From Salinivirgaceae bacterium (GTDB taxonomy: Bacteria; Bacteroidota; Bacteroidia; Bacteroidales; SZUA-534), in NCBI GenBank assembly GCA_016342715.1, contig JAEINW010000023.1:1-36009 (forward strand): 36,009 nucleotides of DNA. The letters run 5' to 3'. Within the stretch, counting starts at the first letter, position 1. Each line of letters opens with the position of its first letter. The notes beneath the pieces are model-generated. The model had not been told where the DNA came from. It was given only the letters and a program-made list of their open reading frames with translations, and did no database searches. The translations under genes were made by a program, and so were the position numbers. Positions 1,668 through 15,930 of this stretch are shown piece by piece.

Positions 1668-2008
1668 TATCAAGCCTGCGGTATGCAGATAATTGGACAC
1701 AAGAACGGCGAAGTCCTCACGTAAGTAATCAAAAAATATTTACATGTTTTGTATTGAATCTTGATACCTGTCTGCTGACAAGGCAGGCTTTGTACTTAAT
1801 ACTATAAGACAGATTTCAAAAAAGATTAATACCAGATATCTGTATCGAATTTTATTTTGAACTCAGGTTATTAATATCGGCTATCATTACACCTCCTGAT
1901 ATGATTAGCCAAATAATGGTTTGCATACCATTATTCCTTCTGTACGAAATTAGTATTAAAATTAGTGATAGAATTTTTAGAAAAACGTATTCATAATAGT
2001 TTTTGAAT
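1668..2008. other. Intergenic stretch with palindromic sequence
   Basis: No gene seen. It contains CCTG..GCAGG-type palindromic sequence around 1766-1786, similar in style to CCTGAC-GGCA-GTCAGG at 35459-35474, and two nested inverted repeats (1879-1909 and 1912-1935) downstream of the minus-strand T9SS gene. Confidence 0.4.
1912..1935 (-). terminator. Hairpin downstream of the T9SS gene pair
   Basis: Perfect 9-bp inverted repeat AATAATGGT / ACCATTATT with a 6-nt loop, about 75 bp past the stop of the minus-strand gene at 2009. There is no clean T-run, so it could be a processing or stability hairpin instead of a true intrinsic terminator. Confidence 0.35.
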
Positions 2009-2809
2009 TCAATTGTATCTATTATTTACTGAAAACCTTTTTCTCATTAATATTTCGTCTTGACAAAGTTCAATAATATAAAAGCCATCATTCAAATTTG
2101 AAATATTTATTGCGCCATTATTTGAAAGGTTTCCACCTAACATTACAAGCCCCGATAGATTGTATATTTTATAGTGAATATTACCAATACTATTCGTATA
2201 AGTGTCTATATTTATTATATCGCTGGCAGGATTCGGATAAATATAAAATGAATTATTTAAAACAGATTTATTCAATATAGCACTCGTTGGACAGGACTCT
2301 TTTTCGATACCATATGAAGAAAAAACAGAATCAATGTTTTCGCGATTTATAGGTGCTATATTTGATATTAAAGTTTTATCAGGACTTATAAGCATTAACT
2401 GAGGCCAATAGCCTATTTGCCATTCTTCATAAACCAATTGACCTCCTCCCATGCCGCTAATTGCAGGATAAATACCACCAAATTCCTCTTCAAAGTCTAA
2501 TACTTCATCATTATAATTGAAATAATTAATAGCTAAAAATACCAAGTCGCTCTTATTGCAACCATAATCGGTGTACACATTATTAAATGTTGGAACAAGA
2601 GTTAAGCATTGATAACAACTAAGACCAAAAAAATCTATACAAACATATTTGTTATTATCAAGATATGAGAATAAGTTATGCGTGTTGCCATGCACGTCGA
2701 TTACAGTAAAGTCTGATACTGTATCATTTATAATATACTGAGCATTGAGATTAAAAACCACACCCCCCAACAATAAAAATGAGAAAACTATTGCTTTAAT
2801 ATTTTTCAT
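2009..2809 (-). CDS. Secreted thioredoxin-fold protein with T9SS sorting tail
   Basis: 266 residues. A signal peptide (residues 1-23, ending LNAQ) is followed by a thioredoxin/AhpC-like domain. FFGLSCYQC (60-68) is the redox site with Cys65 and Cys68, preceded by the usual hydrophobic strand (YVCIDF); WPQLMLIS resembles the later strand that carries the cis-proline region. From about residue 186 a type IX sorting domain appears: YIYPNPASDIINI, then GFYIIELCQDE. It should therefore be secreted or surface-anchored through T9SS after SecYEG export. It overlaps the upstream gene by 4 bases (ATGA), so the two are translationally coupled. A redox-active protein at the cell surface fits the neighbouring thioredoxins. 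Substrate unknown. Confidence 0.8.
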   Translation of the reverse strand: MKNIKAIVFSFLLLGGVVFNLNAQYIINDTVSDFTVIDVHGNTHNLFSYLDNNKYVCIDFFGLSCYQCLTLVPTFNNVYTDYGCNKSDLVFLAINYFNYNDEVLDFEEEFGGIYPAISGMGGGQLVYEEWQIGYWPQLMLISPDKTLISNIAPINRENIDSVFSSYGIEKESCPTSAILNKSVLNNSFYIYPNPASDIINIDTYTNSIGNIHYKIYNLSGLVMLGGNLSNNGAINISNLNDGFYIIELCQDEILMRKRFSVNNRYN

Positions 2810-3588
2810 GGTAAAATAATTACAGTTCCCGATTTAAATAAAGTATTTTTTGAAATAATTCTATAATAATAAGTTCCACTTTTTAATTGATTTGTATTCA
2901 TATTAATGTATGAATCCGTAGCCTTGAACGGAGTTGTTGTTATTAGTTGTCCAACACCATTATACAGTTCAATACTCCCTGATTGCTGCATATTTAACTC
3001 TTTATTTATAGTAAAATAGTTTGTAGCAGGATTTGGATAGGGTAATGAAAACTGTTTTTGCATATTATTTTCGGCAATTGAAGTTGGATTACATGAATCC
3101 ATTATAAACTTAACCACAACCATTGCTGAATCTGATGGATTTTCATTATTAAAAAAAGTATATGCTACAAGAATGCATCCCAAGTTTCCATTTGGTTTAT
3201 AATGCCCCGAGAAAATGTCAGTAGTTCCATTTGCAGGGATGTTAACCGGAACAATAGATTCAAAAGTATATGGTGGAAAACAACTACTCCAGCAAAAGTA
3301 GTTTTGTGTTTCTGAAATTAATTGAATATGTCTTTTACGACATTGTACATCCAGACTACTCGATGAGGTGTTTTTTATATCAATCTCCACAAGAGCTTCG
3401 TAGGCGTAGTAATAGGTAGTATCGCCTTGAAAAATGTAGGTATGCAAGGTATCTGCTTTAACATTGCCAAAAACCTCAATGGTATCAACATTTATTAAGC
3501 TGTTTTCATGATATAATTCGATGTTTTGAGCTTTAGCCTGTAATGCTAAAAATACTATTGTGAAAAAAATAAAAAAGTACTTCTTCAT
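2806..3588 (-). CDS. Secreted protein with T9SS sorting tail, function unknown
   Basis: 260 residues. Signal peptide (1-20, ending ALQAKAQ), a beta-rich middle with no enzyme motif that I recognise, several cysteines (CRKRH, CWSSC, CNPTS) and a C-terminal type IX sorting domain (YPNPATNYFTI, then GTYYYRIIS and SGTVIILP). The middle may be an Ig-like or adhesin-like fold. It lies 3 bp downstream of the outer-membrane barrel gene and overlaps the next gene by 4 bases, so the three are probably one transcript. The CWSSC pair could form a disulfide handled by the adjacent thiol-redox proteins; that is inference. Confidence 0.75.
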   Translation of the reverse strand: MKKYFFIFFTIVFLALQAKAQNIELYHENSLINVDTIEVFGNVKADTLHTYIFQGDTTYYYAYEALVEIDIKNTSSSSLDVQCRKRHIQLISETQNYFCWSSCFPPYTFESIVPVNIPANGTTDIFSGHYKPNGNLGCILVAYTFFNNENPSDSAMVVVKFIMDSCNPTSIAENNMQKQFSLPYPNPATNYFTINKELNMQQSGSIELYNGVGQLITTTPFKATDSYINMNTNQLKSGTYYYRIISKNTLFKSGTVIILP

Positions 3589-3591
3589 TGT

Positions 3592-4551
3592 TTATATTTT
3601 TTGAGGTTCGCAATTTTTATTAAAATTAATGCTTTTTGATAGTTTAATTGAAATGGCAAATTTATTTGAAAGTTGAGTACCATTCATGTATTTATAAAGG
3701 GGTATATCGGCATATACTGAGATACCAAAACTTTCTGTAGGCATTACGTTTACTTGAGGAATAAAAAATACAACTTGTCCACCGCTTGATTCAACATTTT
3801 GCTGATTTTCACGCATTGATTTTTCTCTATACTCATATCGCAACTGCGATAATAAATTTAGTTTCTTATTAATAGAAAATGAGCCATACGCTGAAATAAT
3901 ATATAGATTACCATATTTGTAATCAAAATTATCTGATTGAATTCTGTTTGCAAATTCAGCAAAAGCCCTAAATGAGACACTATGTTTATTTATACCTTTA
4001 AACACAAATACATTTACATTGTATTTAAGACTACCTGACGATGGTTGTAATGAAATTGGTAGTTTTACATCATCAACAACTTGGTCGAATACGCCTACAG
4101 GTAATTTTACGCCTATGCCTGGTATGATGTCAAATTTTTTAAGTACTCTTTTAACGACTGCGTATTTCATACTTAATTCGGCATCGCCTAAGCCATAACC
4201 TTTCATGGACGACCAACCTTCAATATTGTATATTTTTGCCTTGTTTATAAAATAACCGATGTCAGCACGAACGCTTAACCTATTTGTAATGCCATAAGCC
4301 ATATCAAAACCAACGAAATTATAATAAGACTTATCGGGTGAAATGTCCGTTTTATCGGAACTTGAATAATACTGGTCGGAATAACTGTATTTGTAGCTTG
4401 AACCTATAAGTAATGTTTTGAAGGGTAGACCTGAAACATTTCCAAATCCACTTACTGGATTACCGGCACCGCAACACTGAGCATTTGCCTTAGAGATTAT
4501 AAAAAATGTAAAAGACAATATGACTAATATATATAGCTTAATTTTATTCAC
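3592..4551 (-). CDS. Outer-membrane beta-barrel with N-terminal CC motif
   Basis: 319 residues. A signal peptide ends near ISKANA, so mature residues start with QCCGAGNPVSG. The rest is alternating beta-strand sequence rich in Tyr and Gly, ending in a short basic tail, as expected of an outer-membrane barrel of the 'transporter' type. The paired cysteines at the mature N-terminus recall Bacteroidota barrel proteins that I have seen next to TlpA-like redoxins; that association is from memory. A metal- or thiol-binding plug is conceivable. It heads a transcript with the two T9SS genes. A 309-bp gap with strong hairpins separates it from the lipoprotein gene upstream. Confidence 0.65.
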   Translation of the reverse strand: MNKIKLYILVILSFTFFIISKANAQCCGAGNPVSGFGNVSGLPFKTLLIGSSYKYSYSDQYYSSSDKTDISPDKSYYNFVGFDMAYGITNRLSVRADIGYFINKAKIYNIEGWSSMKGYGLGDAELSMKYAVVKRVLKKFDIIPGIGVKLPVGVFDQVVDDVKLPISLQPSSGSLKYNVNVFVFKGINKHSVSFRAFAEFANRIQSDNFDYKYGNLYIISAYGSFSINKKLNLLSQLRYEYREKSMRENQQNVESSGGQVVFFIPQVNVMPTESFGISVYADIPLYKYMNGTQLSNKFAISIKLSKSINFNKNCEPQKI

Positions 4552-4662
4552 GTGTATAAACTTTAATTAATATTCTGAATTAATGCAAGTTACAGCTTTC
4601 AGCTTTAGTTTTCGTGAGCTTTGTTGCCTCACTCTCACATTATTTTTTATTAGTGTTCGGCG

Positions 4663-4758
4663 AACCCTCATCAGGAAAAACACATTACAGCTTGTTTTTT
4701 TATTAATATCCTTTTGTTTTTGCACCTCATTTATTAAACTTGCTTAAGGATGAGGGTT
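4663..4758. repeat. Long-spaced inverted repeat AACCCTCATC / GATGAGGGTT
   Basis: Two perfect 10-bp arms separated by 76 bp in the leader region of the barrel gene. Its role is unknown: it could be a structured leader, a degenerate mobile element or a protein-binding pair. Confidence 0.45.
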
Positions 4759-4806
4759 TCATCTGTGTATTGCTAATTTTTAATGGTCAGATGGAACTTA
4801 CCATTC

Positions 4807-4846
4807 GCAAATAATCATAGTCATGTGTGAGATAATGATTATTTGC
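4807..4846 (-). terminator. Strong hairpin after the lipoprotein gene
   Basis: Perfect 12-bp arms GCAAATAATCAT / ATGATTATTTGC with a 16-nt loop, starting 15 bp past the stop of the minus-strand gene at 4861. The T-run expected after an intrinsic terminator is missing on the minus strand. It may end or stabilise the upstream transcript, or serve as a binding site. Confidence 0.45.
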
Positions 4847-4860
4847 CCATGGATGTTTCA

Positions 4861-5214
4861 TTATTTAAACGGTAAAATTCTGATTTTAATTTGTTTTGAA
4901 TCGCTCTTGGTGCTATTCGCCACAGTGCAGGTTATTGTATTAATGCCTGTACAACAAGTACCTGCCATATATTCAACCTGACTACCTGAGCCATTAAGTT
5001 CACCGTGGTCGGCTTCCCAATTGTATATCAATTCATCGCCCGAAGCTGTCACAGTTATTTTTGTAGGAACCCAAACATTAAGTACTGTATCATCCGCTAT
5101 TAAACTTTCAATTGTAACATTACCAGTACCATCTGATTTTGATTCATCTTTTGTACATGAGGAACTCAAAATAGCTACTAACAATATTAGGCTGTATAAA
5201 ATCTTTGTCATCAT
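4861..5214 (-). CDS. Small lipoprotein with one Ig/PKD-like domain
   Basis: 117 residues. Lipobox LSSSC gives an acylated Cys near residue 20, followed by a Ser/Lys-rich linker (TKDESKSDG). The remainder (about 28-117) looks like one Ig-like or PKD-like beta sandwich: LIYNWEADHGEL, then the strand VEYMAG, and TCCTGINTITCTV. The CC and TITCTV cysteines could pair in a disulfide. It is 35 bp downstream of the redoxin gene and likely in its transcript. A periplasmic or surface binding role is possible; no enzyme motif is visible. Confidence 0.6.
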   Translation of the reverse strand: MMTKILYSLILLVAILSSSCTKDESKSDGTGNVTIESLIADDTVLNVWVPTKITVTASGDELIYNWEADHGELNGSGSQVEYMAGTCCTGINTITCTVANSTKSDSKQIKIRILPFK

Positions 5215-5249
5215 AAATATATTTCTTAATAAAAAGACACCTTATTTTA

Positions 5250-5765
5250 TTATTCTGATATTACTTTTTCAATTTGTTCATAAATCAAATCCTCATCACC
5301 GTTTACATACAAAGTTTTTTGCCATACAATTTCCCCTTTACCATTTAAAAGAAAAGTGTGTGGAGTAAGAGCTACATTCATGGCTCTTTTTAATTCGGAA
5401 TTTGGGTCGAGTAAGACCTCAAAGCCCCAACCATGGCTATTCGCAAAAGGGGCTACACGACTTGAGCTACGAGTATTGTCAATAGCTACTGCATATAAAA
5501 CCACACCTGTTTCATCTACCCAATCTTCATAAACTTCTGCCACAGCATCTAAATACTCACACGGACTTTTACAACAAGTTTTCCAAAAACATATTAGAAT
5601 AGGCTTATTCCCATTCGTAATTTCAGAAATATTTATTGACTGACCCTTAATGTTTTTCAGGCTAACCGAAGGTAATGTACTATCTGTATTTTGAGCAAAG
5701 CTTAGTTTTTGAACACACAAAATTAATATACACAGAAACACGATTTTATTTAATTGAGTCATCAT
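5250..5765 (-). CDS. Periplasmic TlpA/AhpC-like redoxin with odd active site
   Basis: 171 residues. Signal peptide (1-24, ending LSFAQ), then a thioredoxin-like fold: PSVSLKNIKGQSINISEI (the usual redoxin opening), PILICFWKTCCKSPC (55-69), VVLYAVAIDNTRSSS, LTPHTFLLNGKGEIVW with the cis-proline region. The common TlpA motif is WCxPC. Here Cys64 and Cys65 are followed by Cys69, so the reactive pair is either C-x3-C or uses the doubled Cys. That is a real departure, not a truncation. It overlaps the thioredoxin gene upstream by 20 bases, so the two are translationally coupled. Probably a thiol-disulfide exchanger in the periplasm. Confidence 0.8.
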   Translation of the reverse strand: MMTQLNKIVFLCILILCVQKLSFAQNTDSTLPSVSLKNIKGQSINISEITNGNKPILICFWKTCCKSPCEYLDAVAEVYEDWVDETGVVLYAVAIDNTRSSSRVAPFANSHGWGFEVLLDPNSELKRAMNVALTPHTFLLNGKGEIVWQKTLYVNGDEDLIYEQIEKVISE

Positions 5766-6222
5766 TTATAATTGTTTTTGTTAGTTCTGGTGTTGAAAGA
5801 TATCCAGTATGGCGAAAAAACTCTTTGCCATTTTTATCTAGTAATACTTGGGTAGGAATTGCTGCAATGCCATAGTATTTCATGAGAGTTTGACTTTCGG
5901 GTAATAAAATATTTAGGAATACTACATTTACCATATTGGGATATTTCTCTCGAACTTCATCCATTACCGTTTCCATTTTTCTGCAAGCTGTACAACCTTT
6001 TGCTCCAAATTCAAGAAAAGTGACTTCATAATTGAAGTCATTCATTGAATAATTAAAAAGAGAATCAATTAATGCATCTCCTGATTTTATAATTTCGGGA
6101 GATGCATTTTTTGCAATTGATTCTGATAGATATTGTGTTAGCTTATCCTTTGTTGCAAAACCAATAATTATCAGCAAGAACAAACATACAAAGACGAACC
6201 AAGACAGAATTTTTTTAAGCAT
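5746..6222 (-). CDS. Membrane-anchored thioredoxin-family protein
   Basis: 158 residues. One N-terminal transmembrane helix (about 4-22), then a periplasmic linker and a thioredoxin domain. The active site is EFGAKGCTACRKM with Cys77 and Cys80, and YGIAAIPTQVLLDKNG carries the cis-proline. This resembles the thioredoxin-like proteins that reduce or receive electrons beside DsbD/CcdA-type transporters. It starts 3 bp after the ProC-like gene ends and overlaps the next redoxin gene by 20 bases, so these three genes form a tight operon. Confidence 0.85.
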   Translation of the reverse strand: MLKKILSWFVFVCLFLLIIIGFATKDKLTQYLSESIAKNASPEIIKSGDALIDSLFNYSMNDFNYEVTFLEFGAKGCTACRKMETVMDEVREKYPNMVNVVFLNILLPESQTLMKYYGIAAIPTQVLLDKNGKEFFRHTGYLSTPELTKTIINDDSIK

Positions 6223-6225
6223 GCT

Positions 6226-6999
6226 TTACGGTTTTATTTTTTGAAACAATCCCAAAAGTTTGGTTTGATAAATTTCTAAAATTTGAGATTCATGTTCGCC
6301 TATGGGTTTTACAGGAATCAGGTCGATAACTTGTTCTGATGGAAGCTCTGATTTGTACATTAAATTTAAAGCTGCCTGTAAAGTTCGATGAACAGTGTCA
6401 ATACTTTCTTCGGAGCTCAGTCCCATTTCTACACCCAGTTTTTCCATTTCTTTCCATTGAAACCAAAAATAGGTGGGTAGCATTGCAGAGATCATTGCAT
6501 AAGCTTCCAATTTGGGTTCTTCAACTTCAAAGGTTGTTCCTAAAGTTGTTAGCAGTTCTAATAACGATTGTTTTTTGGTTAAAGAAAATTCAGGAGCAAA
6601 CGAAAGAGGGTTGTAACCTTCATTGATGTATGAAGTGGCATTGGGAATCATTCGAGCAATGTTTTTTATTATCAATTTGGAAGCAATTTTTTCAATGGTG
6701 ATTTTTGGGGCTAATGAAACCACCTGTGTGTGTGTTGAAACCGATGCTTTAATTTGTTCTAATGTTTCCATAATAACAGGTGGATGCAAGGCTATAAAAA
6801 CAATATCTTGCTTTGCCACTTCTTCGCACGATTTAGTCGATTGAATTTTTGGGAACTGTTTTTTTAGTACATTTAGAACTTCCGAGTTTGTATCGCAAAC
6901 CAGAACTGATGACAATTCAATTTGTTTATTTACTAATGCTTGCAGAAAAATTTTAGTTATTCTTCCGCCACCAATAAAACCTAAAGTTTTTGTTTCCAT
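6226..6999 (-). CDS. NAD(P)-binding protein, pyrroline-5-carboxylate-reductase-like
   Basis: 257 residues. An N-terminal Rossmann fold opens with TLGFIGGGRITKIF (nucleotide-binding loop G7-x-x-G10-x-G12), followed by VLVCDTNSEV and DIVFIALHPPVI, the pattern of ProC and related NADP-binding oxidoreductases. The helical C-terminal half (about 150-257) would form the dimer and active site (ISAMLPTYFWFQWKEM). It is not a standard proC: the surrounding genes are redox and transport genes, so the substrate may differ. It heads a tight operon with the thioredoxins. Its first codons are duplicated at 10993-11061, which suggests that the 5' end was rebuilt by recombination. Family firm, reaction uncertain. 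Confidence 0.75.
   Translation of the reverse strand: METKTLGFIGGGRITKIFLQALVNKQIELSSVLVCDTNSEVLNVLKKQFPKIQSTKSCEEVAKQDIVFIALHPPVIMETLEQIKASVSTHTQVVSLAPKITIEKIASKLIIKNIARMIPNATSYINEGYNPLSFAPEFSLTKKQSLLELLTTLGTTFEVEEPKLEAYAMISAMLPTYFWFQWKEMEKLGVEMGLSSEESIDTVHRTLQAALNLMYKSELPSEQVIDLIPVKPIGEHESQILEIYQTKLLGLFQKIKP
6939..6984 (-). repeat. Proximal copy of a 46-bp exact repeat
   Basis: These 46 bases in the 5' end of the ProC-like gene are identical to 10998-11043 in the same orientation. Beyond the right end the two copies diverge for several codons and then agree again at the start codon (TTTGTTTCCATGAT on the plus strand). The pair brackets the sulfur cassette. Confidence 0.9.
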
Positions 7000-7085
7000 G
7001 ATATTTGTTTATGATTAATAAATGATTTTGGTATTTCTCAATGTCGAAGATATATGTTTTTTGATGTAAAATTTATAATCCATAT

Positions 7086-7640
7086 TTAACTGACCTTATT
7101 TTCGGTATTATCTTTTGTTTTTTCGAGTAATACAAATGACTTATTTACAAAATATACGATTGAAACGAAACTTAATCCAATAATTGCAACATCAAAAATG
7201 GTATAGGCAACACCAACTATATGTGTTATACTATTAAATTTAATTAGCATGAACAAACCACTAACAACTGTTATTGCCATAAAAAATATTGATATTTTGA
7301 ATGCAGCGCTTCCTTTTAAATTCCTCTTTTTTAAATCTGCAAGAACAAAGCCGCCAAATAGTATAGCTAACATGCTCATTATAAAATGGTTTTTATCGAA
7401 CCACATCCGTTCGGGTAAAATGTATGAGTTGAGTTCGGGTTTTAAATATACGAGTACAAAAGCAATTGTCAATACGATGTAAACAAGAAGCAACTGCGCC
7501 GATTTTATATTGAAATAATTCTGTTTTGAATTTTGCATAAAATACATCAGATTTTGTGGAATGGCATTCTGTGCATGATTTTGAGCCAATTGCGCCTTTT
7601 GCCGGCATGATGTCGTGGCTATATTTATGAACGTTGCCAT
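7086..7640 (-). CDS. C-terminal membrane domain of the octaheme cytochrome, frameshifted
   Basis: The frame has 184 codons, but only from about residue 40 (QNYFNIKSAQLLLVYIVL) does it look like protein. It has about four transmembrane helices (roughly 48-66, 85-101, 113-133, 139-165) and a charged tail. The first 39 residues overlap the cytochrome gene out of frame and look like shadow. Deleting one base in the AAAA run at 7524-7527 would join ...DVFYAKFK of the cytochrome to QNYFNIKSAQ, giving one protein of about 760 residues with a membrane domain at its end. Possible explanations are mutation, programmed slippage or sequencing error. A separate small protein starting at an internal Met (residue 32 or 35) is the alternative. 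Confidence 0.6.
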   Translation of the reverse strand: MATFINIATTSCRQKAQLAQNHAQNAIPQNLMYFMQNSKQNYFNIKSAQLLLVYIVLTIAFVLVYLKPELNSYILPERMWFDKNHFIMSMLAILFGGFVLADLKKRNLKGSAAFKISIFFMAITVVSGLFMLIKFNSITHIVGVAYTIFDVAIIGLSFVSIVYFVNKSFVLLEKTKDNTENKVS

Positions 7641-9372
7641 AAGGTGAAGCTTCCCAATTTTCCATAGTGATTTCGTAAAAATCGGTAGCAGATTTATATA
7701 TCCGGTTGTTCATCACCCAAACCACCTGTTTGCCTTTCATCGGATAATCAATTTTATTCAACATATTGGTGGTGGCAGCAATTAGTGCATCAATTTCTTC
7801 GGGGCGATTAATTTCAATTACTTTGTCGTTATTATCATCGGTTATTTTTGCAAGTTCAGGATATTGTGTATGGTCTTTTTTAAACGCCATCCACATTTTA
7901 TACACATCACCCATCTTGGGTTGCATCAAACCTTTTTCGCCTTCTGTTAAAATTCCTGCCCACGAGGTATGTACACGGTTCACTGGATAAATTTTTCCTT
8001 TGTATTTTGCCAATTCCGGTTTAAAAGCAAAAGTTGGTTTATTATCATAGCCCATCATTTCAAGGTCTCCATAATGATTCCAGTATTTCATATTGGGACC
8101 ATAAAATGTCCATAAATGCTTGCCTTTTGTTGGGATTTTGGTTCCAGGGTTAAATACATCGCTTGCCACGTAATGCGCCGATTTTACATGTCGTTCAGGA
8201 ATGTGGCAAGTTTGACAAGCAATTTTATCGAGATGCAAATCGGGCAGCCAATTGTGTTTTGCCAGTGGAGCGCCAAATAAGCCGTTATAGTGGCAGTCGG
8301 TACAAGTGCGCATGGTGTTATTTAGGTCGTTTCGTACCATACCACCGGGGTCATCACCCTTGGCAAACTGGTGCATTTCTTTTTTGTTAATCCGCTCATC
8401 ACCAGCCATAGTTCCCGCCTGATGACAGTCAACACATTTTAAACCGGCATTTAAATGCACATCTTTTTTCGAATTAAAATCGGCTCCTCGTTTTTTGTAG
8501 CCCGGCTTGGCGTGGCACGAAAGACATGCTTTATTTTGCGGTTCGCCTGTAATCATGAGCTCCAGAGTTCCATCAGCATTAAACATATCGACATTATAAC
8601 TTACTTCAACCGTTTTGTTTTCAGCAACAGAACCTTTTACAGTTCCCAAACCCGAACCAGCCAAGGCAGCATATTTGTAATTGTATTTCTGTATTTGATT
8701 AATTCGTTTTTTATTGTTGTATTGAGGAAGATGGCAAATAAAACAATCGGCTTCAATTACACCGCTCGCCTTCCATTTTGCTTTGTAATAATCGCCATCA
8801 AGTTTGTTTTTTGCCCCATCGGTGAAACCAAATTTTGTGTCTGACATCACCTCATCGTAGCGTAAGCCATTTCGGTCGTATTCAAGAGAACCTCCACCAG
8901 GATGACAAACCCCACATTTATTTACAAAGGTGTATGAAGTAAGGTCAATAAGTTTTTCATTTGTATTTTCTTTTGTAGAAAGATATGAATATAATGGTGC
9001 CGGGGAACACCAATTTCCGCCGTAGTTTCCCGGATGTGAAACCCATTTTGCTTTATTTGTTAGCGAAATGTCTGCTTGCTCATCCTTTCCTTGTTGAAAA
9101 TGGTAGCCCATGGTTATTGTTTCATAATTGTGGCATTTTCCACAGGTTTGTTTGGGTGAATAGGGTTTGTCTACATTTTTCCCGGCAGCCGGATTAATGG
9201 TGTCGCCATCTTCGGTTAACAGGTAATATGGCGGGCATGCTCCAGTTGTCGAAACTTCTTTTTGAATATCAGAAAATTTTTTAGGTGCATCGTTCCTTGT
9301 TAAAACTAATGTGATGACCGAAAAGGCGCTTATAATAATTAAAAGGATTAGAGTGATGAATTTTGTTCTCAT
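7393..9372 (-). CDS. Octaheme c-type cytochrome, probably sulfur-compound reductase type
   Basis: 659 codons. N-terminal signal anchor (5-25), then eight CxxCH haem sites with first Cys at residues 77, 153, 210, 283, 313, 357, 386 and 600. The long gap between haems 7 and 8 and the total of eight recall octaheme tetrathionate reductase/hydroxylamine-oxidoreductase-like proteins, but no CxxCK site is present, so the catalytic haem type is open. The last 43 residues (after FYAKFK) look like an out-of-frame tail; see the membrane-domain entry at 7086. It sits downstream of a TauE/SafE permease, rhodanese and ArsR regulator, which points to sulfite, thiosulfate or polysulfide chemistry in the periplasm, with electrons from membrane quinol. 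Haem count is seen directly; substrate is inferred. Confidence 0.8.
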   Translation of the reverse strand: MRTKFITLILLIIISAFSVITLVLTRNDAPKKFSDIQKEVSTTGACPPYYLLTEDGDTINPAAGKNVDKPYSPKQTCGKCHNYETITMGYHFQQGKDEQADISLTNKAKWVSHPGNYGGNWCSPAPLYSYLSTKENTNEKLIDLTSYTFVNKCGVCHPGGGSLEYDRNGLRYDEVMSDTKFGFTDGAKNKLDGDYYKAKWKASGVIEADCFICHLPQYNNKKRINQIQKYNYKYAALAGSGLGTVKGSVAENKTVEVSYNVDMFNADGTLELMITGEPQNKACLSCHAKPGYKKRGADFNSKKDVHLNAGLKCVDCHQAGTMAGDERINKKEMHQFAKGDDPGGMVRNDLNNTMRTCTDCHYNGLFGAPLAKHNWLPDLHLDKIACQTCHIPERHVKSAHYVASDVFNPGTKIPTKGKHLWTFYGPNMKYWNHYGDLEMMGYDNKPTFAFKPELAKYKGKIYPVNRVHTSWAGILTEGEKGLMQPKMGDVYKMWMAFKKDHTQYPELAKITDDNNDKVIEINRPEEIDALIAATTNMLNKIDYPMKGKQVVWVMNNRIYKSATDFYEITMENWEASPYGNVHKYSHDIMPAKGAIGSKSCTECHSTKSDVFYAKFKTELFQYKIGAVASCLHRIDNCFCTRIFKTRTQLIHFTRTDVVR

Positions 9373-9389
9373 AATTGTAGGTTTGTATT

Positions 9390-10166
9390 TTAATAAGCGT
9401 TTATTATCATTAGTATTGCTGCAATAATGGAAGTTAGGGCAAATACAATTTTCAGTTTCTTGGGTTTGAATTTTAGTGTGAGTTTAGCTCCGATAATTCC
9501 GCCAATTAACCCTGCAAGGGCAAGAGGAAGAGCTAAACGGTAATCGAAATGGCCAGAGCTCAGATGACCCAAGAAGCCTGCCGTTGCAGTAACCAAAACC
9601 AGAGTAGTTGAAGTCCCCACGGCAATATGCATAGGCACACGAATTGCCAAAATCATCAATGGAACAAGGAATGATCCACCAGAAATACCAACCATACCCG
9701 AAACAAAACCAGTAAGTAAAACAATTGGAACTACAATCAAAAGGTTAATAGAGTAAGATTCATTTCCGGAGTTTAGTGTGAATGAAAACCTTCCTTCGGT
9801 ATTCACTTGCTTGTTAACTGGTTTTAGCATCATTACGGATGCAATTGTAATAAAAATCGCAAAGATTATTTTCAGTAATTTATCCTGAAAAATATCAGAA
9901 AACAAACCACCTAAAAAAGCAGAAACCAGTGTCATGCTTCCAATAAGAAACACTAGTTTCCAATCTGTAATTTTTTGTTTGCCAAATAAAATAGTAGCAG
10001 CAAGTGACGAAACAATCAAGATAAACTGCCCGGTAGTTGCTGCTTCATGCATCCCAATTCCCGAGAGGACCAATGCCAAAACATAAAAATTTCCACCGCC
10101 TCGCCCAGTCATTGTCATAACAGAAGCAATAGCAAAAATAATTAGAGCTAAAATCCAAACACTCAT
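9390..10166 (-). CDS. TauE/SafE-family sulfur anion permease
   Basis: 258 residues with about eight transmembrane helices and the internal two-fold repeat typical of the family: FAIASVMTMTGRGGGNFYVLA in the first half and FVSGMVGISGGSFLVPLMI in the second. Members export sulfite or sulfoacetate or import sulfur compounds. It overlaps the rhodanese gene by 4 bases (ATGA) and precedes the cytochrome by 17 bp, so the three are co-transcribed. The likely job is moving the sulfur oxyanion or reduced product connected with the rhodanese and cytochrome. Direction of transport cannot be read from sequence. Confidence 0.85.
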   Translation of the reverse strand: MSVWILALIIFAIASVMTMTGRGGGNFYVLALVLSGIGMHEAATTGQFILIVSSLAATILFGKQKITDWKLVFLIGSMTLVSAFLGGLFSDIFQDKLLKIIFAIFITIASVMMLKPVNKQVNTEGRFSFTLNSGNESYSINLLIVVPIVLLTGFVSGMVGISGGSFLVPLMILAIRVPMHIAVGTSTTLVLVTATAGFLGHLSSGHFDYRLALPLALAGLIGGIIGAKLTLKFKPKKLKIVFALTSIIAAILMIINAY

Positions 10167-10552
10167 GAATTTATTTTTTTGAAGATTTTTCCGGGCAAAA
10201 CAGCATCGATAAATGAAGCATATCCACCGGGCAGAATTCTGACATGCTCATATCCTTTGCTTTTTAGATAGGCAAAAATTACAGTACATCGCACACCCGA
10301 AGAACAAAAAATTCCAATAAATTTATCTTTTGGAATTTCATCCAATCTCACAGGAACCTCGTTTGTTGGAATTTCCAATACTTGACAATGGTGTTCCATT
10401 TTCAATTTAATTGTATCTATTTCTTCTGGCGCTCTCACGTCGAGTAAAATGGCACCTTCTTTACGAAAAAATTCTTCGGTTTCAATTTTATGTTGTCCTG
10501 TTCCAAAATATTGGAAATCCATTTGACTGATTACTTTTTCTAAGTCATTCAT
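10163..10552 (-). CDS. Single-domain rhodanese (sulfurtransferase)
   Basis: 129 residues. Rhodanese fold with ILLDVRAPEEI (35-45), the conserved Asp-Val-Arg, and the active-site loop IFCSSGVRC with persulfide-forming Cys83. The end GGYASF is the usual GG motif after the loop. No signal peptide, so cytoplasmic. It should carry sulfane sulfur as a cysteine persulfide. Together with ArsR and TauE/SafE it matches the known layout of persulfide- or sulfide-responsive operons. It is the first gene after the regulator and has its own operator-like inverted repeat just upstream. Confidence 0.88.
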   Translation of the reverse strand: MNDLEKVISQMDFQYFGTGQHKIETEEFFRKEGAILLDVRAPEEIDTIKLKMEHHCQVLEIPTNEVPVRLDEIPKDKFIGIFCSSGVRCTVIFAYLKSKGYEHVRILPGGYASFIDAVLPGKIFKKINS

Positions 10553-10571
10553 GTTAATTCTATTTTATTGT

Positions 10572-10588
10572 TTTGCCAAATAAGCAAA
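10572..10588 (-). promoter_or_regulatory. Second operator-like repeat, ahead of the rhodanese
   Basis: TTTGC-CAAATAA-GCAAA (5-bp arms, 7-bp spacer) contains the word GCCAAATAAGC, close to GCCAAATAGC in the larger repeat upstream of the regulator gene. It lies 20 bp before the rhodanese start. I infer that the same ArsR protein binds both sites. Confidence 0.45.
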
Positions 10589-10605
10589 TTACTTTATAAA
10601 AATTT

Positions 10606-10899
10606 TTAGCTCTTATTCAAAATTCTATTGGCACAACTCATAAAGTCCAAAACACAAGGAATATTTAAAGTATAAAACACATTGTTTTTATGTTTTTCCC
10701 CAACAATAATTTTATGTCGTTTTAGGATATCTAAGTGTTTTGAAACTGTGGAAATATCAACGCCAATCATTTCAGTTAGCTCTTTTACTGATAGTTTTTT
10801 GTCATGAATAGCATGAACAATAAATAAACGTGTGGGATGTGCCAAAGATTTAAAAATCTCTGCTTCCGATTGATAATCGTCAATTATATCCTGATTCAT
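10606..10899 (-). CDS. ArsR/SmtB-family repressor of the sulfur cassette
   Basis: 97 residues, normal length for the family. The winged helix-turn-helix covers about 17-78: SLAHPTRLFIVHAI, LTEMIGVDISTVSKHLDILKRH, then the wing KHKNNVFYTL. There is no metal-binding CxC in the recognition region; the only cysteines are Cys82 and Cys89 in the C-terminal helix (IPCVLDFMSCANRI). That pair could form a thiol switch for persulfide or sulfide. Known BigR/SqrR regulators use one Cys near the N-terminus plus one C-terminal, so the sensing geometry would differ here. It is the first gene of the cassette, with a large palindrome over its promoter, so autoregulation is likely. Confidence 0.87.
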   Translation of the reverse strand: MNQDIIDDYQSEAEIFKSLAHPTRLFIVHAIHDKKLSVKELTEMIGVDISTVSKHLDILKRHKIIVGEKHKNNVFYTLNIPCVLDFMSCANRILNKS

Positions 10900-10918
10900 A
10901 TTTCCTTTTTTACATGAT

Positions 10919-10955
10919 GCTATTTGGTAGAATAGCCAAATAGCTTACAAATGTA
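10919..10955 (-). promoter_or_regulatory. Promoter and palindromic operator of the sulfur cassette
   Basis: Perfect inverted repeat with 9-bp arms GCTATTTGG / CCAAATAGC and an 8-bp spacer (10919-10944). Directly upstream on the minus strand is TACATTTG (10948-10955), a match to the Bacteroidota -7 box TAnnTTTG. The predicted transcription start would fall inside the repeat, as expected for repression by ArsR. A clear -33 box was not found. Confidence 0.65.
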
Positions 10956-10992
10956 ATGAAATTGGTAAATAATTAGCTGGAGATTACCCTTT

Positions 10993-11061
10993 TTATACTT
11001 GCAGAAAAATTTTAGTTATTCTTCCGCCACCAATAAAACCTAATGATTTGTTTGTTTCCAT
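10993..11061 (-). pseudogene. 22-codon stub of the ProC-like gene
   Basis: ATG at 11059-11061 begins METNKSLGFIGGGRITKIF, nearly the same as METKTLGFIGGGRITKIF of the complete gene at 6999, and stops at TAA 10993-10995. The Rossmann glycine loop is intact, the rest is gone. The stub starts 28 bp after the stop of the permease half gene at 11090, the spacing of an operon member. It looks like the original 5' end of the ProC-like gene, cut off by insertion of the sulfur cassette; a deleted duplicate is the alternative. Confidence 0.8.
10998..11043 (-). repeat. Distal copy of the 46-bp exact repeat
   Basis: Identical to 6939-6984, same orientation, offset 4059 bp. See the stub at 10993-11061. 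Confidence 0.9.
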
Positions 11062-11089
11062 GATTATTGATTTTTAAGATTGAATTTTT

Positions 11090-11623
11090 TTACCCTTCAT
11101 TTATTTTACATTTATTTCTTTTAAAATATCTTCCCATAATTATTCCGATTAGAATAAAAACAGGTATGGTTATTAAGATTCTTAACATTGAAAATTTCAC
11201 ACCCAAGAAACCTATTTCGAAAGTTAGCATGGGTATTTTAGCTGTTGTAAAAGCACTTATGTATATGAAAACATTCACAGGCGAACAACCTTTTTTCCAT
11301 AAAAGATATGCAACCGGAAAAGCTGCATATAGTGGTCCTGCCTGAATAAATGCCAAAAGCATCACTAATAGCATTCCTTTTAAGCCCGAAGCATTGCCTA
11401 TATGTTTTTGAATTCGTTCTTTGGGAATCCAAACATCAAAAAGACCGATTAGAATAAACATTACCGGCAGAATTACGAGCATTTCTTTAAAAAACATCCA
11501 GAAATTATCTTTAAAGATTTGTTTTCCAGGATTATAATTGAAATAAAAGGAACTACCAACGAATAGCACAAAAACTAAAATAATAGGAAAATCAAATTTA
11601 TATTTCTTTAAAATAGTTTTCAT
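11090..11623 (-). CDS. Permease half gene A (PF03773-like)
   Basis: 177 residues, about five transmembrane helices. DVWIPKERIQKHIGNASGLKG and FIQAGPLYAAFPVAYLLW match one half of the ArsP/YraQ permease family, in which a full-length protein has two such repeats. It is adjacent to half gene B (6 bp spacing), so the transporter is likely a heterodimer of halves. The substrate is unknown; the family exports metalloid or organo-metal species. The cupin and ArsR upstream suggest control by the second ArsR. Confidence 0.7.
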   Translation of the reverse strand: MKTILKKYKFDFPIILVFVLFVGSSFYFNYNPGKQIFKDNFWMFFKEMLVILPVMFILIGLFDVWIPKERIQKHIGNASGLKGMLLVMLLAFIQAGPLYAAFPVAYLLWKKGCSPVNVFIYISAFTTAKIPMLTFEIGFLGVKFSMLRILITIPVFILIGIIMGRYFKRNKCKINEG

Positions 11624-11629
11624 ATTTAT

Positions 11630-12109
11630 TTACATTAAATAGTATGTAAAAGCCATAAGCGTACCTACGATAATTGCACCGAAAAAACTGAGTACATTTC
11701 TTATTATTGTAGTTTTTAATCCAAAATACCGTACTTCAATTGGAATGGTTAATATACCAACCATCATTAAGGTGGTAATAAATACAGCAATTACCGAATA
11801 ACTTACACCCGATTGTACTAAAATTCCGGCTAAAGGATATGCAATAAAACCGGGTAACAACGAAACAGAACCTATAGTTGCAGCGGAAATATAAGCTCCT
11901 AAACCAGCTTCTTTTCCAAGATATTCTATTAGTAATTTATCTGACACAAAAAATAGAACGACACTTATTATAATTATTACAGATAAGAGGGTTGGTAGAA
12001 TTCTAAAAAACTGTATCAATCCCTTATGTATTCCTTGTATTGTTTTCTTTCGATCAACAATAAAAGAGATAATAACAAGTAAGGCCGTAATTGCAAGTAA
12101 ATATTGCAT
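11630..12109 (-). CDS. Permease half gene B (PF03773-like)
   Basis: 159 residues, about four or five transmembrane helices. LIEYLGKEAGLGAYISAATIG and VSLLPGFIAYPLAGILVQSG parallel the LSADKW..ANAAGIVP part of the full-length permease at 13074. It pairs with half gene A downstream. It starts 4 bp before the cupin gene ends its stretch (12114), so cupin, B and A are one transcript. Both halves are intact ORFs with their own starts, so this is a stable split and not a frameshift. Confidence 0.7.
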   Translation of the reverse strand: MQYLLAITALLVIISFIVDRKKTIQGIHKGLIQFFRILPTLLSVIIIISVVLFFVSDKLLIEYLGKEAGLGAYISAATIGSVSLLPGFIAYPLAGILVQSGVSYSVIAVFITTLMMVGILTIPIEVRYFGLKTTIIRNVLSFFGAIIVGTLMAFTYYLM

Positions 12110-12113
12110 TCCT

Positions 12114-12431
12114 TTATTTTTTATGTTTTTGTATCTGAATACCCATAAGTTTTTCCCCTTGTAAGGTTTTCATAGAAAATAGGCCAGGCTCTGAAGCTAT
12201 GCTTTGTTTTTCTATTAGGCTAAATTTCTCTCCGTTTATATTTATATCAACCTGCCCATGCATAACTACGAATACTACATGCGATTCCATATTACATTCA
12301 GGTAGGCTTCCATTTTCAGGTAAATCAATAATGCTAATTTTAAAATCATCGCTATTGTAAAGCACATTTTTATGTCTTTCCCCGTAAGGGAATCCGTTTA
12401 ATTTTGTAAAATCTAAAATTTCCATAATCAA
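12114..12431 (-). CDS. Small cupin-domain protein
   Basis: 105 residues. A single cupin barrel is suggested by FKISIIDLPENGSLPECNMESHVVFVVMHGQVDI (two cupin-like strands with a His) and by the second stretch KFSLIEKQSIASEPGLFSMK. The metal-ligand set is reduced compared with canonical cupins. No signal peptide. It lies between the second ArsR gene and the split permease. A role in binding the transported compound or in handling a small ligand is a guess from context. Confidence 0.6.
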   Translation of the reverse strand: MIMEILDFTKLNGFPYGERHKNVLYNSDDFKISIIDLPENGSLPECNMESHVVFVVMHGQVDININGEKFSLIEKQSIASEPGLFSMKTLQGEKLMGIQIQKHKK

Positions 12432-12505
12432 ATTTTAACTTTGTTTTTGAAAAGGATTATTTTGTATAATCATTTCAGCTTTCAAAATATCTTAAGACTG
12501 TAATT

Positions 12506-12865
12506 TTATTTTTCTAATTCATTCATTATTAAAGGGCAGCAATCTTTTGCTTTGTCATGTAATTGCTCTATTGTTTTCTGAAACTCAATAAAGCTATCTT
12601 TAATTAGACCAAAATGTTTCAGATTTAAACTATAATATATATGATTACCATCTGCCAGACTATTAATAAGTTGCGCTTCCAAAAGTTTACTTAAGTGTTC
12701 GGAAATAGTAGATTTTGCAAGGGGTATTTTTTCTGAAATACTACCAGCCTGGCAAGCTTTATATCTGGACAGATGAATTATAATTTGCACTCTTGCCGGA
12801 TGCGAAAGAGCATGCAGTAAGGGAGCCAGTTTTAAAGAAATTTCCTCATAGATTGCTGTTTCCAT
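12506..12865 (-). CDS. ArsR-family regulator of the split-permease operon
   Basis: 119 residues. Winged helix: LLHALSHPARVQIIIHL, IPLAKSTISEHLSKLLEAQLI (recognition helix), then DGNHIYYSL. Cysteines are Cys38 in KACQAGS, at the place where As(III)-binding ArsR proteins carry a Cys, and Cys109-Cys110 near the C-terminus (DCCPLI). A metalloid site from these three thiols is plausible. It precedes cupin, permease B and permease A with a 74-bp gap to the cupin. It is distinct from the ArsR genes at 10606 and 15975. Confidence 0.85.
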   Translation of the reverse strand: METAIYEEISLKLAPLLHALSHPARVQIIIHLSRYKACQAGSISEKIPLAKSTISEHLSKLLEAQLINSLADGNHIYYSLNLKHFGLIKDSFIEFQKTIEQLHDKAKDCCPLIMNELEK

Positions 12866-12872
12866 TCCGTTG

Positions 12873-12884
12873 CTATTTTAATAG
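12873..12884 (-). promoter_or_regulatory. Candidate operator of the second ArsR gene
   Basis: CTATT-TT-AATAG, a perfect palindrome 8 bp upstream of the start codon at 12865. Similar in style to ArsR-type sites, but in AT-rich DNA it could be chance. Confidence 0.35.
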
Positions 12885-12922
12885 TTGTAATATAAAAACC
12901 ACAAAGTATCCTAATGATATTA

Positions 12923-13033
12923 CTACATTAAGTAATTAAAGATGAATCCTACGATTATTATTCCTGTAGCAACTATACCTACAAATGCAGTAATTAATTT
13001 CCATTTTTTGAAATAATTTTGATAGGTGTTTGT
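12923..13033 (-). pseudogene. C-terminal relic of an ArsP-like permease
   Basis: A frame open from just after TGA (13034-13036) to TAG (12923-12925) reads 36 residues with no usable start codon. KKWKLITAFVGIVATGIIIVGFIFNYLM matches in pattern the last residues of the complete permease next to it (TWKLIGIFFGTITIFIIALGYLFNFIL): WKLI, a hydrophobic helix, then G-x-x-FN. It lies just downstream of that permease's stop. I read it as the tail of an earlier permease gene whose front was replaced. Confidence 0.65.
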
Positions 13034-13073
13034 TCAACTTACCCTTAGATACAAAACCAATAATTTTTAAAAA

Positions 13074-14201
13074 TTATAGTATAAAATTGAATAGATAACC
13101 TAACGCTATAATGAATATGGTTATCGTTCCAAAGAAGATTCCGATTAGTTTCCATGTCATTACTTTTTTAAGCAAAGTAGCTTCAGGTAGCGAAAGTCCA
13201 ACTACTGCCATCATAAATACTATGGCAGTTCCCAGTGGTACACCTTTAGCGACAAAAACCTGTATAACTGGAACTATTCCAGCTGCATTGGCGTACATTG
13301 GTACAGCCAGTATTACGGCTAATGGAACAGCATACCATTTGTCTGCGGATAAATATTCAGTAAAGAAATTTTCAGGAACATATCCGTGCATGGCAGCGCC
13401 AATGGCAATACCAATAATAACATACAACAGAACTTTACGAACGATGTCCCAACCGTCTTTAATGATGGTTGGTAGTCGGTCGATGAACGGCGTTTTTTCG
13501 CCTTCCCACTTTTCATTTTCTTTAATTGCGTTCTCTTGAACCTGAAGAACCCAATCGCTTAAATACCTATCAAGTTTTAGTTTGCCTAGGATATAACCAC
13601 CAACCATACCCATAAGAATACCACTCCCTGCATAAATTGCAGTTGCTTTTAAACCGAACAGCCCCAAAAACATAGCTACCGCAACTTCATTAACCAATGG
13701 TGAAGTAATCAGGTAGGCAAAGGTAACACCAAGTGGAATACCTCCCTTTACAAAACCAATAAACAGCGGTATTGAAGAGCAAGAGCAAAAAGGTGTAACT
13801 GCACCAAAAAATGATGCAAATAAATACTCTAAGCCGTACAGTTTTTTTGTTGTGAGGTAAATTCTTAATCTGTCAACAGGAAAATATGCATTTACTGCTC
13901 CCATTAGACTGCTAATAAGAAATAGCAGTATGAGGATCTTTATTGTATCATAAAAAAAGAAGTTAACAGCTTCTCCTATATGCGATTCGGGCTTTAGTTT
14001 TATTAAGTCGAAAGTAAAATAATCAATAATGCTAGGCAGGAACTTATATAATAAAATTAATGCTGGTAAAACTATTGCTACTGAAATTAGAAGCTTAGTT
14101 CTTTTCCTTTTTTCTTGATTTTGTAGTTGAACAGGAGCATCAATGACACAAGTCTCGCATTTTACTTCGTCTTGTTTTTCTAATAAATTCAATCTTCTCA
14201 T
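13074..14201 (-). CDS. ArsP-like permease (PF03773)
   Basis: 375 residues, about eight transmembrane helices in two repeats. FFGAVTPFCSCSSIPLFIGF (132-150) carries the family's Cys139-x-Cys141-Ser-Ser motif, and VPMYANAAGIVPVI is the matching second-half loop. The cytoplasmic N-terminus has CETC (15-18), a possible metal-delivery site. ArsP proteins export trivalent organoarsenicals; some relatives move Cu or Zn. It follows arsE/F/G and a BFD-like gene, with its own copy of the arsR operator 20 bp upstream, so it is probably part of the arsenic regulon. Stop overlaps an 18-bp AT palindrome. Confidence 0.8.
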   Translation of the reverse strand: MRRLNLLEKQDEVKCETCVIDAPVQLQNQEKRKRTKLLISVAIVLPALILLYKFLPSIIDYFTFDLIKLKPESHIGEAVNFFFYDTIKILILLFLISSLMGAVNAYFPVDRLRIYLTTKKLYGLEYLFASFFGAVTPFCSCSSIPLFIGFVKGGIPLGVTFAYLITSPLVNEVAVAMFLGLFGLKATAIYAGSGILMGMVGGYILGKLKLDRYLSDWVLQVQENAIKENEKWEGEKTPFIDRLPTIIKDGWDIVRKVLLYVIIGIAIGAAMHGYVPENFFTEYLSADKWYAVPLAVILAVPMYANAAGIVPVIQVFVAKGVPLGTAIVFMMAVVGLSLPEATLLKKVMTWKLIGIFFGTITIFIIALGYLFNFIL

Positions 14202-14220
14202 TGGAAAAGTCTTTTTTTAT

Positions 14221-14238
14221 GTTCGGTAATTGACAAAC
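14221..14238 (-). promoter_or_regulatory. Third arsR-type operator, ahead of the permease
   Basis: GTTCGGTAATTGACAAAC matches 15 of 18 bases of the operator upstream of arsR (GTTCGGTATTTAACGAAC in the corresponding orientation). It lies 20 bp before the permease start, overlapping a possible TAnnnTTTG promoter element on the minus strand. Confidence 0.6.
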
Positions 14239-14264
14239 AATATTTGTAATTTTTTTTCATGCGA

Positions 14265-14492
14265 TTAACTACAGCAACTACAAGTGCAATTATTAGTTGT
14301 GGTTGAGTTTTTTAATAGCGTATTTATGTCTTCTGAACAGCATTTTCCCGATGGGTTCAATGTTGCACATTTATTTCCGGTACAGGCTTTAGTCTGAACT
14401 TGAATATCGTTGAGGGTTTTAGCCCCATTTTCTCTAGCAGTTTTTATTTCGGCCTCGGTTATATTTTTGCAATAACAAATAATATTACTCAT
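14265..14492 (-). CDS. BFD-like [2Fe-2S] protein with Cys-rich tail
   Basis: 75 residues. CYC at 6-8 and CTGNKC (37-42) give the CxC...C-x4-C arrangement similar to bacterioferritin-associated ferredoxin-like domains, which normally end Cx2C. Two further clusters follow, CC at 51-52 and CTCSCC at 69-74 near the end. The tail could bind arsenic, copper or zinc and pass it to the permease. It starts 3 bp after arsG ends, so it is co-transcribed. Cluster type is inferred; the spacing is unusual. Confidence 0.7.
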   Translation of the reverse strand: MSNIICYCKNITEAEIKTARENGAKTLNDIQVQTKACTGNKCATLNPSGKCCSEDINTLLKNSTTTNNCTCSCCS

Positions 14493-14495
14493 AAT

Positions 14496-15197
14496 CTACG
14501 CTAAAAATATTGTGAACCCCTGGTACAATCCCACTCCAATAAATAAAACGGCTATAACTCTACGAAACCACATTTCAAACACTTTAATTTTATTGTAAAG
14601 ATTAGCTATTGAACCAACACTAAAAGCAATAAGCCATGCAAAAATAATTACAGGAATACCTGTTGCAATGGCGAAAACAAAAGGCAGAATTAAACCGCTT
14701 GCACTACCAACTGTCATTGGAATAAGCATGCCAAAATAGAGCACTCCGCTATAGGGACAAAAAGCCAATGCAAATACAATCCCTAATAAAAGAACACCCC
14801 AAAAACCGCTGTTTGACTTATTCTCCATTTTCTCGCTTAGCGAACCTATTCCCGGTATTTTTAGTTTTATAATACCGAGCATAAATAGTCCGATAATAAT
14901 TAAAATTGGGCCAAGAAGTTTTTCTCCCCATTCTTGCAAAATACCTGAGAACTCGAATTGACTCGCTCCAAAGAAAAAGATTACACCAATAGTTGTATAA
15001 GAAATAGCACGACCTAAGGTGTAAACTAATCCATTAATGAAGACTTTACGCTGACTTTTAAGGTCTTTGCTAATGTAGCCAATGGCTGTAATATTAGTTG
15101 CCAAAGGGCAGGGACTTATGGCTGTCATAAGTCCCAGTAAAAAAGCCGATAGTATAGGAAATTGTGAAGTTTCCAAAAAGTTTTGTAGTACTTCCAT
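14496..15197 (-). CDS. arsG: ArsG-family efflux permease (DsbD/CcdA-like)
   Basis: 233 residues, about six transmembrane helices. SPCPLATNITAIG (28-40) and AFCPYSGVLYFG (around Cys147) are the paired CP motifs of the DsbD/CcdA superfamily. In the arsEFG system such a protein exports aromatic aminoarsenicals produced by reduction of nitrophenyl arsenicals. Here it follows arsF by 1 bp and precedes the BFD gene, matching that arrangement. A plain thiol-electron transporter feeding ArsF is an alternative role and cannot be excluded from sequence. Confidence 0.8.
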   Translation of the reverse strand: MEVLQNFLETSQFPILSAFLLGLMTAISPCPLATNITAIGYISKDLKSQRKVFINGLVYTLGRAISYTTIGVIFFFGASQFEFSGILQEWGEKLLGPILIIIGLFMLGIIKLKIPGIGSLSEKMENKSNSGFWGVLLLGIVFALAFCPYSGVLYFGMLIPMTVGSASGLILPFVFAIATGIPVIIFAWLIAFSVGSIANLYNKIKVFEMWFRRVIAVLFIGVGLYQGFTIFLA

Positions 15198-15198
15198 A

Positions 15199-15636
15199 TT
15201 ACATCATTGAATCAACGGTAGATTTAAGCTTTGCTTTAAACTTATCTGGATTTGTACGAGCATTCATAAATGCCTCATTAGTTAAATTAACAACCTTATC
15301 ACCTTTAATAATTAAAAGCGTTTGTCCACTTACTTTATATTGAGCCAACATTGGATTCTCTTTATCCTCTTCTCTGTTTATGGCTTGAAAAGAAACTTTT
15401 GTACCGTAATATTCTTTTAATGCTTCTTCGGTAACAGATTCTACTGCTTGACAAGTGGCACATCTGCGTGTTGCATGAAAGTAATAGGCTTTTACGTTGC
15501 TTGCTTGTTTGCTTTGCTTGCAAGCTACTGTAGTTTCTGAAGTGGTTTTTGTTTTCGAACTATTACAACATTGTGCTGAGATGCTTATTAAGCCAACAGC
15601 AAAAACAAAAGTTAGCGTACTAATTAATTTCTTCAT
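15199..15636 (-). CDS. arsF: ArsF-family periplasmic thiol protein
   Basis: 145 residues. Signal peptide (1-21) followed by CC at the mature N-terminus (SAQCCNSSK), a Ser/Thr/Lys linker, then a thioredoxin-like domain with YYFHATRRCATCQAVE (Cys59 and Cys62). Proteins of this kind are annotated as the ArsF subunit of nitrophenyl-compound nitroreductase. It lies between the small thioredoxin gene and arsG (1 bp), the arsE-F-G order. Which reductive chemistry it performs cannot be read from the sequence. Confidence 0.8.
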   Translation of the reverse strand: MKKLISTLTFVFAVGLISISAQCCNSSKTKTTSETTVACKQSKQASNVKAYYFHATRRCATCQAVESVTEEALKEYYGTKVSFQAINREEDKENPMLAQYKVSGQTLLIIKGDKVVNLTNEAFMNARTNPDKFKAKLKSTVDSMM

Positions 15637-15645
15637 CTGTGTGTG

Positions 15646-15918: not shown

Positions 15919-15930
15919 TTTTTATTATCT

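Follow-up and report, generated by a model that had tools for sequence, protein, structure and literature searches.

A probable recombination scar at a ProC-like gene in a redox and sulfur gene cluster of a Salinivirgaceae bacterium

The stretch of DNA analysed here, 36,009 nucleotides from a Salinivirgaceae bacterium (the window; G000:C355:1-36009), carries the 5' end of a ProC-like gene twice: in a complete gene (6226-6999, - strand) and in a 22-codon stub (10993-11061, - strand) that starts 28 nt behind the permease gene permB. Nothing lies between the two copies except genes for an ArsR-type regulator, a rhodanese, a TauE/SafE permease and an octaheme cytochrome, the latter in two pieces. 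We consider this arrangement to be, with a probability of about 0.57, a recombination scar between two ProC-type loci, one copy of which was cut at codon 21. The window belongs to a draft genome of 5.54 Mb in 358 contigs (completeness 98.4%, contamination 1.4%).

According to this reading, two loci in which a ProC gene followed a different usual partner, permA-permB in one case and the octaheme cytochrome in the other, would have been brought together via the common, highly conserved ProC 5' end. An illegitimate junction before the ArsR-rhodanese-TauE trio would have truncated the permB-side ProC at codon 21, leaving the stub, and the other copy would have stayed whole, ahead of the thioredoxin and redoxin genes. 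Most likely, this would have happened without a dedicated recombinase, either by homology-facilitated illegitimate recombination (HFIR) or through one crossover with incoming DNA; we infer this route, the number of events and the side that received the DNA. Comparisons with relatives suggest that an ordinary scar of module shuffling in a changeable cluster is more likely than a new kind of mobile element, or than an integrative element that inserted the five genes as one unit.

The repeat itself had been described in an earlier note on this DNA as an exact 46-bp match, 4059 bp apart, in the start of the ProC-like gene and in the stub, and we confirmed it: positions 6939-6984 and 10998-11043 (both - strand) are identical and in the same orientation. 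This pair was the only exact direct repeat of at least 24 bp in the window. A chance origin was rejected, as the longest exact direct repeat never exceeded 20 bp (mean 16.1) in 100 sequences simulated with a Markov-1 model. Elsewhere in the genome, no additional copy was found besides a 24-nt match on C133.

The complete gene, which encodes a protein of 257 aa beginning with METKTLGFIGGGRITKIFLQ, has its start codon at 6999, whereas the stub, recognized by its homology to the ProC 5' end, reads METNKSLGFIGGGRITKIFLQV-stop. The two 5' ends, which have the start ATG GAA ACA in common, were 77% identical over a 94-nt frame; on the 5' side, homology continued beyond the 46 bp up to and including the start codon, and on the 3' side it stopped sharply at codon 21. 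The copies do differ before the repeat, as had been noticed earlier, and the difference takes the form of a 3-bp indel between the start codon and the repeat, the stub having one extra codon there. Since the similarity extends beyond the 46 bp and includes this indel, the two copies look like divergent ProC 5' ends and not like one segment freshly copied. No trace of the rest of a ProC gene was found between the stub and the ArsR gene, and this stretch, when compared with the fetched loci, matched only the window itself, apart from matches of 14-18 nt. A role of the stub as a terminator was rejected: no terminator-like site was present, and promoter-like sites numbered 3 versus 2.7 in shuffles. 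These divergent 5' ends and the abrupt 3' end of the stub are the first observations on which the scar reading is based; the second are the neighbourhoods of ProC in relatives.

Relatives were covered by a scan of genome contigs, which gave 44 loci, and by a sampling of 393 genomes from the larger order, where, at set thresholds and with the window's own genome included, matches were obtained for ProC (34), permB (15), rhodanese (10) and cytochrome (9). No other genome of the same genus was among the relatives listed. Loci of the window's own genome were excluded from all counts of ProC places. This gave 75 distinct places outside the window, 67 of them with more than 500 nt upstream; the eight with 500 nt or less were dropped from upstream counts.

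Both of the partners assumed above were found next to ProC. Among the 67 places, 10 had the cytochrome or its membrane part no more than 800 nt ahead of ProC; no special element is thus required for a donor with the cytochrome-ProC order. PermB was found upstream in three (L030, L106 and L057). An intact ProC gene followed permB without the cassette in L030 (51 nt from the alignment end; ORF gap, 47) and in L106 (158 nt; ORF gap, 115), an arrangement that the earlier note had proposed to look for; in L057, the distance was 611 nt, with one rhodanese ORF between. Other upstream partners of ProC included ArsP permeases, rhodaneses and thioredoxins, and the ProC neighbourhood is very changeable. 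Thioredoxin genes were found behind ProC in the kin L017, L057, L059, L105, L161 and L162, but not in L058, and at most 200 nt behind ProC in 10 of 74 places overall. An ancestral order permease-permease-ProC-thioredoxin, as had been deduced from the window, finds its parts in relatives, the permB-ProC step in L030 and L106 and the thioredoxin in several kin, but no single relative with the whole proposed operon was found. One further locus (L105; G103:C172) contained ArsR, thioredoxin-like genes, a CcdA-like gene, ArsP, ProC, thioredoxin, redoxin and four more genes; this framework was without permA/permB and without the cassette.

A tree of 63 proteins, in which bootstrap values had not settled and two rows were less than half filled, grouped the ProC-like protein of the window with those of L017, L056/L059, L058, L161 and L162 (support 88/97). 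This tree, the second one built, omitted L014, L053, L168 and L177-L180 as well as pieces shorter than 160 aa, except two gapped rows. The genomes of these five nearest relatives gave no permB match; a permB search in 12 genomes gave a single match, in the genome of L057. The cytochrome had no match in the three of the five genomes that were searched directly, and the other two, G313 and G162, were not among the nine cytochrome matches of the order-level sample, in which they are presumed to be present. This lack of permB and cytochrome matches in the nearest kin is also part of the observed basis of the scar. In the genome of L058 (G410), a different contig (L117) has an ArsR-rhodanese-TauE trio.

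It had also been claimed that the complete copy brought its own front end. If anything, the leader sequences point in the reverse direction. Seven residues precede FIGG in 36 of the 61 readable ProC starts, as in the complete copy, and eight, as in the stub, in only two, L049 (start unsure) and the permB-side L057 (METNKS). The leader of the complete copy resembled that of L056, with 1.6% of 2000 shuffles equally good against 42% for the stub's leader; the former scored higher with L161, however, and the latter, which scored highest with L035, also reached 12.0 with the clade members L161 and L058. These data speak mildly against a foreign front end in the complete copy, and are weak evidence that the stub's front end, rather than the complete copy's, may be the odd one.

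In all six relatives compared, no bin of the ProC gene was better conserved than its first 60 nt, with identities of 93% (L017), 90% (L056), 85% (L058 and L057), 78% (L018) and 76% (L019), which makes this stretch a likely place for a crossover. Within the 46 bp, as read from the alignment, L056 differs from the window at 3/46 positions and L017 at 3/44. Because conservation is highest here and these relatives differ at so few positions, two related ProC genes could be identical over 46 bp without copying. The stub, presumably free of selection, is unchanged, which argues for a recent event. Contigs of several relatives were seen to start or end in or near the same stretch (starts of L017 and L034; L115, at the end of G414:C42). 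The ProC-like protein, a P5CR-like oxidoreductase, matched PF03807 (6.1e-11) and the P5CR family ProC, TIGR00112, at 104.3 bits, below the curated cut-off of 196.75; solved structures matching it were 15 P5CR (pyrroline-5-carboxylate reductase) sequences, which were of no help here. Occurrence of the gene on plasmids was rejected, as all 17 plasmid records were below 60% identity (best, 32.8%).

HFIR, in which one end is homologous and the other illegitimate, is documented in two reports (PMC5361080, PMC3240628), as are remnants left by displacement; junctions mostly show 3-10 bp of microhomology according to one of them (PMC3240628). As in such products, a foreign block lies here beside a homologous anchor on one side, the ProC 5' end that terminates the cytochrome side being homologous to the stub, with a putative illegitimate junction on the other: the stub ends abruptly at codon 21, and the sequence beyond had no long match in the fetched loci. 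A resident remnant can also stay behind, as is proposed for Vibrio orphan immunity genes (PMC5361080). The difference is that the remnant here belongs to the anchor gene, of which it is the 5' end, and that no donor was found.

Several points weigh against the scar. The 46 bp contain no mismatch, although L056 shows 3/46 and L017 3/44; such identity is accounted for equally well by an attachment (att) core or by a very recent event. Moreover, a clade forcing together the window's ProC and nine cytochrome-linked ProC genes was rejected (p-AU 4.6e-49), in a test that is harsh, given that two of these nine lie elsewhere in the tree themselves. The window's ProC is thus not kin to cytochrome-linked ProC genes, and a donor ProC would therefore need to have been close to that of the recipient. 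The donor locus was not found among the relatives, so that junction microhomology of 3-10 bp could not be checked, and HFIR was rare where measured, according to the same two reports (PMC3240628, PMC5361080).

Among the alternatives, decay of a second, complete ProC deserves consideration, although we regard it as unlikely: two complete ProC genes would have stood in this order, the permB-side one being later deleted down to 66 nt. It is a fair rival because ProC deletions were seen in kin and some genomes have two ProC places. Internal deletions occurred in the ProC-like genes of L055, L056/L059 and L058, with seemingly two in L058 and one with a frameshift in L056; two ProC places were found in four genomes (L022+L034, L023+L035, G278 and G414, the last with L019 and a second ProC 5' end cut off at the contig end in L115). 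A stretch is also missing from the cytochrome of the block. Decay is contradicted by the lack of any trace of the remaining gene between stub and ArsR, and by the 64 loci searched, none of which had two whole ProC genes side by side.

The view of the earlier note, that an integrative element of 4.06 kb, itself lacking an integrase, was inserted in the ProC 5' end at a 46-bp core, restoring the gene with its own front end, appears rather improbable. Its features recall integrative and mobilizable elements (IMEs) and cis-mobilizable elements (CIMEs) at the 5' ends of protein genes, which also show a direct repeat with one copy completing the target gene (PMC5704250). According to this source, att repeats of tyrosine recombinases span 8-60 bp, some elements use a gene 5' end without disrupting it, and the integrase can be lost in decayed elements. 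The exact identity of the 46 bp beside diverged flanks fits such an element, as does base composition, with a G+C content of 37.7-40.1% in the five 1-kb segments starting at 7500-9500 and of 29.2-36.9% in the others of 2000-16999. The permB-ProC order without the cassette, and the nearest kin without permB or cytochrome matches, are also in keeping with an insertion.

The similarity is, however, not confined to the core and runs past it on the 5' side, the start of the complete copy fits its own clade (if weakly), and no recombinase gene was found between the repeat copies, either among the ORFs or among the family matches of the block, as had been noted before. CIMEs have lost that gene. Neither a recombinase nor an integrase was present among the 25 commonest of the 78 families matched by 115 ORFs upstream of ProC; a family outside these 25 can match at most two of the 115. 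Upstream ORFs listed numbered 137, and the 22 left unscanned comprised 13 second copies of loci already included and 9 others from L010, L012, L013, L050, L157, L158 and L160.

Moreover, the ArsR-rhodanese-TauE-cytochrome block, which had been taken as the inserted unit, was not seen elsewhere. Neither the whole unit nor the stub occurred at any of the 75 ProC places, among which L115, where the contig ends within the start of ProC, cannot be judged; many fetched loci are short or contig ends, too short to show the whole unit. Other elements at the same target were likewise not observed, as far as the 25 families above show. Apart from a ProC gene, the stub was not found either, the only loose matches being L115 and a weak one in L085. 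The modules occur separately: the trio was found without the cytochrome in L027, L088, L089, L091 and L117, and only one (L172) of the 13 fetched loci with a window-type TauE, several of them overlapping and some short, also had the cytochrome, its TauE (46%) lying about 7 kb away. In other lineages, the cytochrome adjoins ProC. TauE of the window type (at least 45% identity) was found within 8 kb upstream of ProC at 1 of the 75 places, L027, which has permA-permB-ArsR-rhodanese-TauE with ProC about 5 kb on, without the stub and without the cytochrome. Relatives with the cassette between an intact permease and an intact ProC gene had been named as evidence against an insertion, and L031 comes close to this: there, the end of permB is followed, in order, by a cupin-like ORF (named by eye), an ORF of 82 aa, the cytochrome, thioredoxin, an ORF of 68 aa and ProC, and no stub is present.

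A related idea, which we consider very doubtful, is that of a small mobile sulfur cassette, integrase-free and 4,059 bp long, which would use the conserved 5' end of ProC-like genes as attachment site and be moved in trans or by homologous recombination of the host; if this were true, such cassettes would supply a hotspot, to which the ProC neighbourhood in Bacteroidales would owe its changeability. A chimeric assembly join at the 46-bp repeat is also very unlikely: the genome is in many contigs and contigs of relatives break in or near the same stretch (L017, L034, L115), but completeness is high, contamination is low, and the stub continues into non-ProC sequence, so that misjoining two ProC genes would not by itself produce it.

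The cytochrome was found to be incomplete. Its front part (7393-9372, - strand) contains eight CxxCH motifs, in line with the octaheme cytochrome reported earlier, and is similar to its relatives up to about codon 614; the C-terminal membrane part is encoded by the latter part of a separate ORF (7086-7640, - strand), out of frame with the front. Both parts form a single open frame in eight relatives (819-874 aa, stop to stop), and a stop was present inside the cytochrome of a further relative, G385. The alignment with L172 (72% identity over a 577-aa part) showed a gap of 185 nt and a change of frame after the eighth heme motif; the two ORFs are therefore pieces of one broken gene, with a frameshifting gap of about 185 nt, as judged by this comparison. 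The protein matched TIGR04315, the tetrathionate-reductase-family octaheme cytochromes, at 35 bits (curated cut-off, 375), and no solved structure at E 0.01. Because this gene is broken, the cassette is not intact as assembled, and metabolic claims from this genome need care.

The remaining genes of the block, all on the - strand, are those for the TauE/SafE permease (9390-10166; PF01925, 3.1e-45), the rhodanese (10163-10552; PF00581, 3.6e-8) and the ArsR-type regulator (10606-10899; NF033788, 72.7 bits, above the cut-off of 55). An inverted repeat seen by eye before the ArsR gene, GCTATTTGG-N8-CCAAATAGC (10919-10944), is likely its operator, and a similar motif, also seen by eye, precedes the ArsR gene in L027, L089 and L091. 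The trio presumably resembles BigR-type sulfur operons; the likeness is one of gene content, and the regulator matched BigR NF040642 at 43.8 bits, below the cut-off of 155. A second rhodanese-TauE pair, 60% and 67% identical to that of the window, was observed in the same genome (L087; G000:C245). Nothing was found in the literature on an octaheme cytochrome with rhodanese and TauE, or on this cluster, which does not imply its absence from print.

On the permease side of the stub lie, again on the - strand, permB (11090-11623; PF03773, 2.6e-12), permA (11630-12109; PF03773, 2.5e-8) and a cupin-like ORF (12114-12431), a name taken from the earlier note for an ORF without a Pfam match, for which matches of 34% and 39% adjoin permA/permB in L067 and L075. 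The stub does stand behind a permease gene, but the idea of a permease split by the insertion was rejected: permA and permB are two half-size ArsP_1 genes that are also adjacent in relatives, e.g., L030, L057 and L062-L070. Behind ProC, thioredoxin and redoxin genes (5250-6222, - strand) were assigned by family matches and by comparison with relatives. Outside the cassette, an IS21-type IstB gene (832-1533) and a short ORF with IS66 transposase domains (27011-27559) were observed.

If the scar reading is right, this locus would be a well-placed example of the reshuffling of a redox and sulfur gene cluster in Bacteroidales, in which the half-permease pair, the ArsR-rhodanese-TauE trio and the octaheme cytochrome would swap around a ProC-like gene whose conserved start serves as the crossover point.

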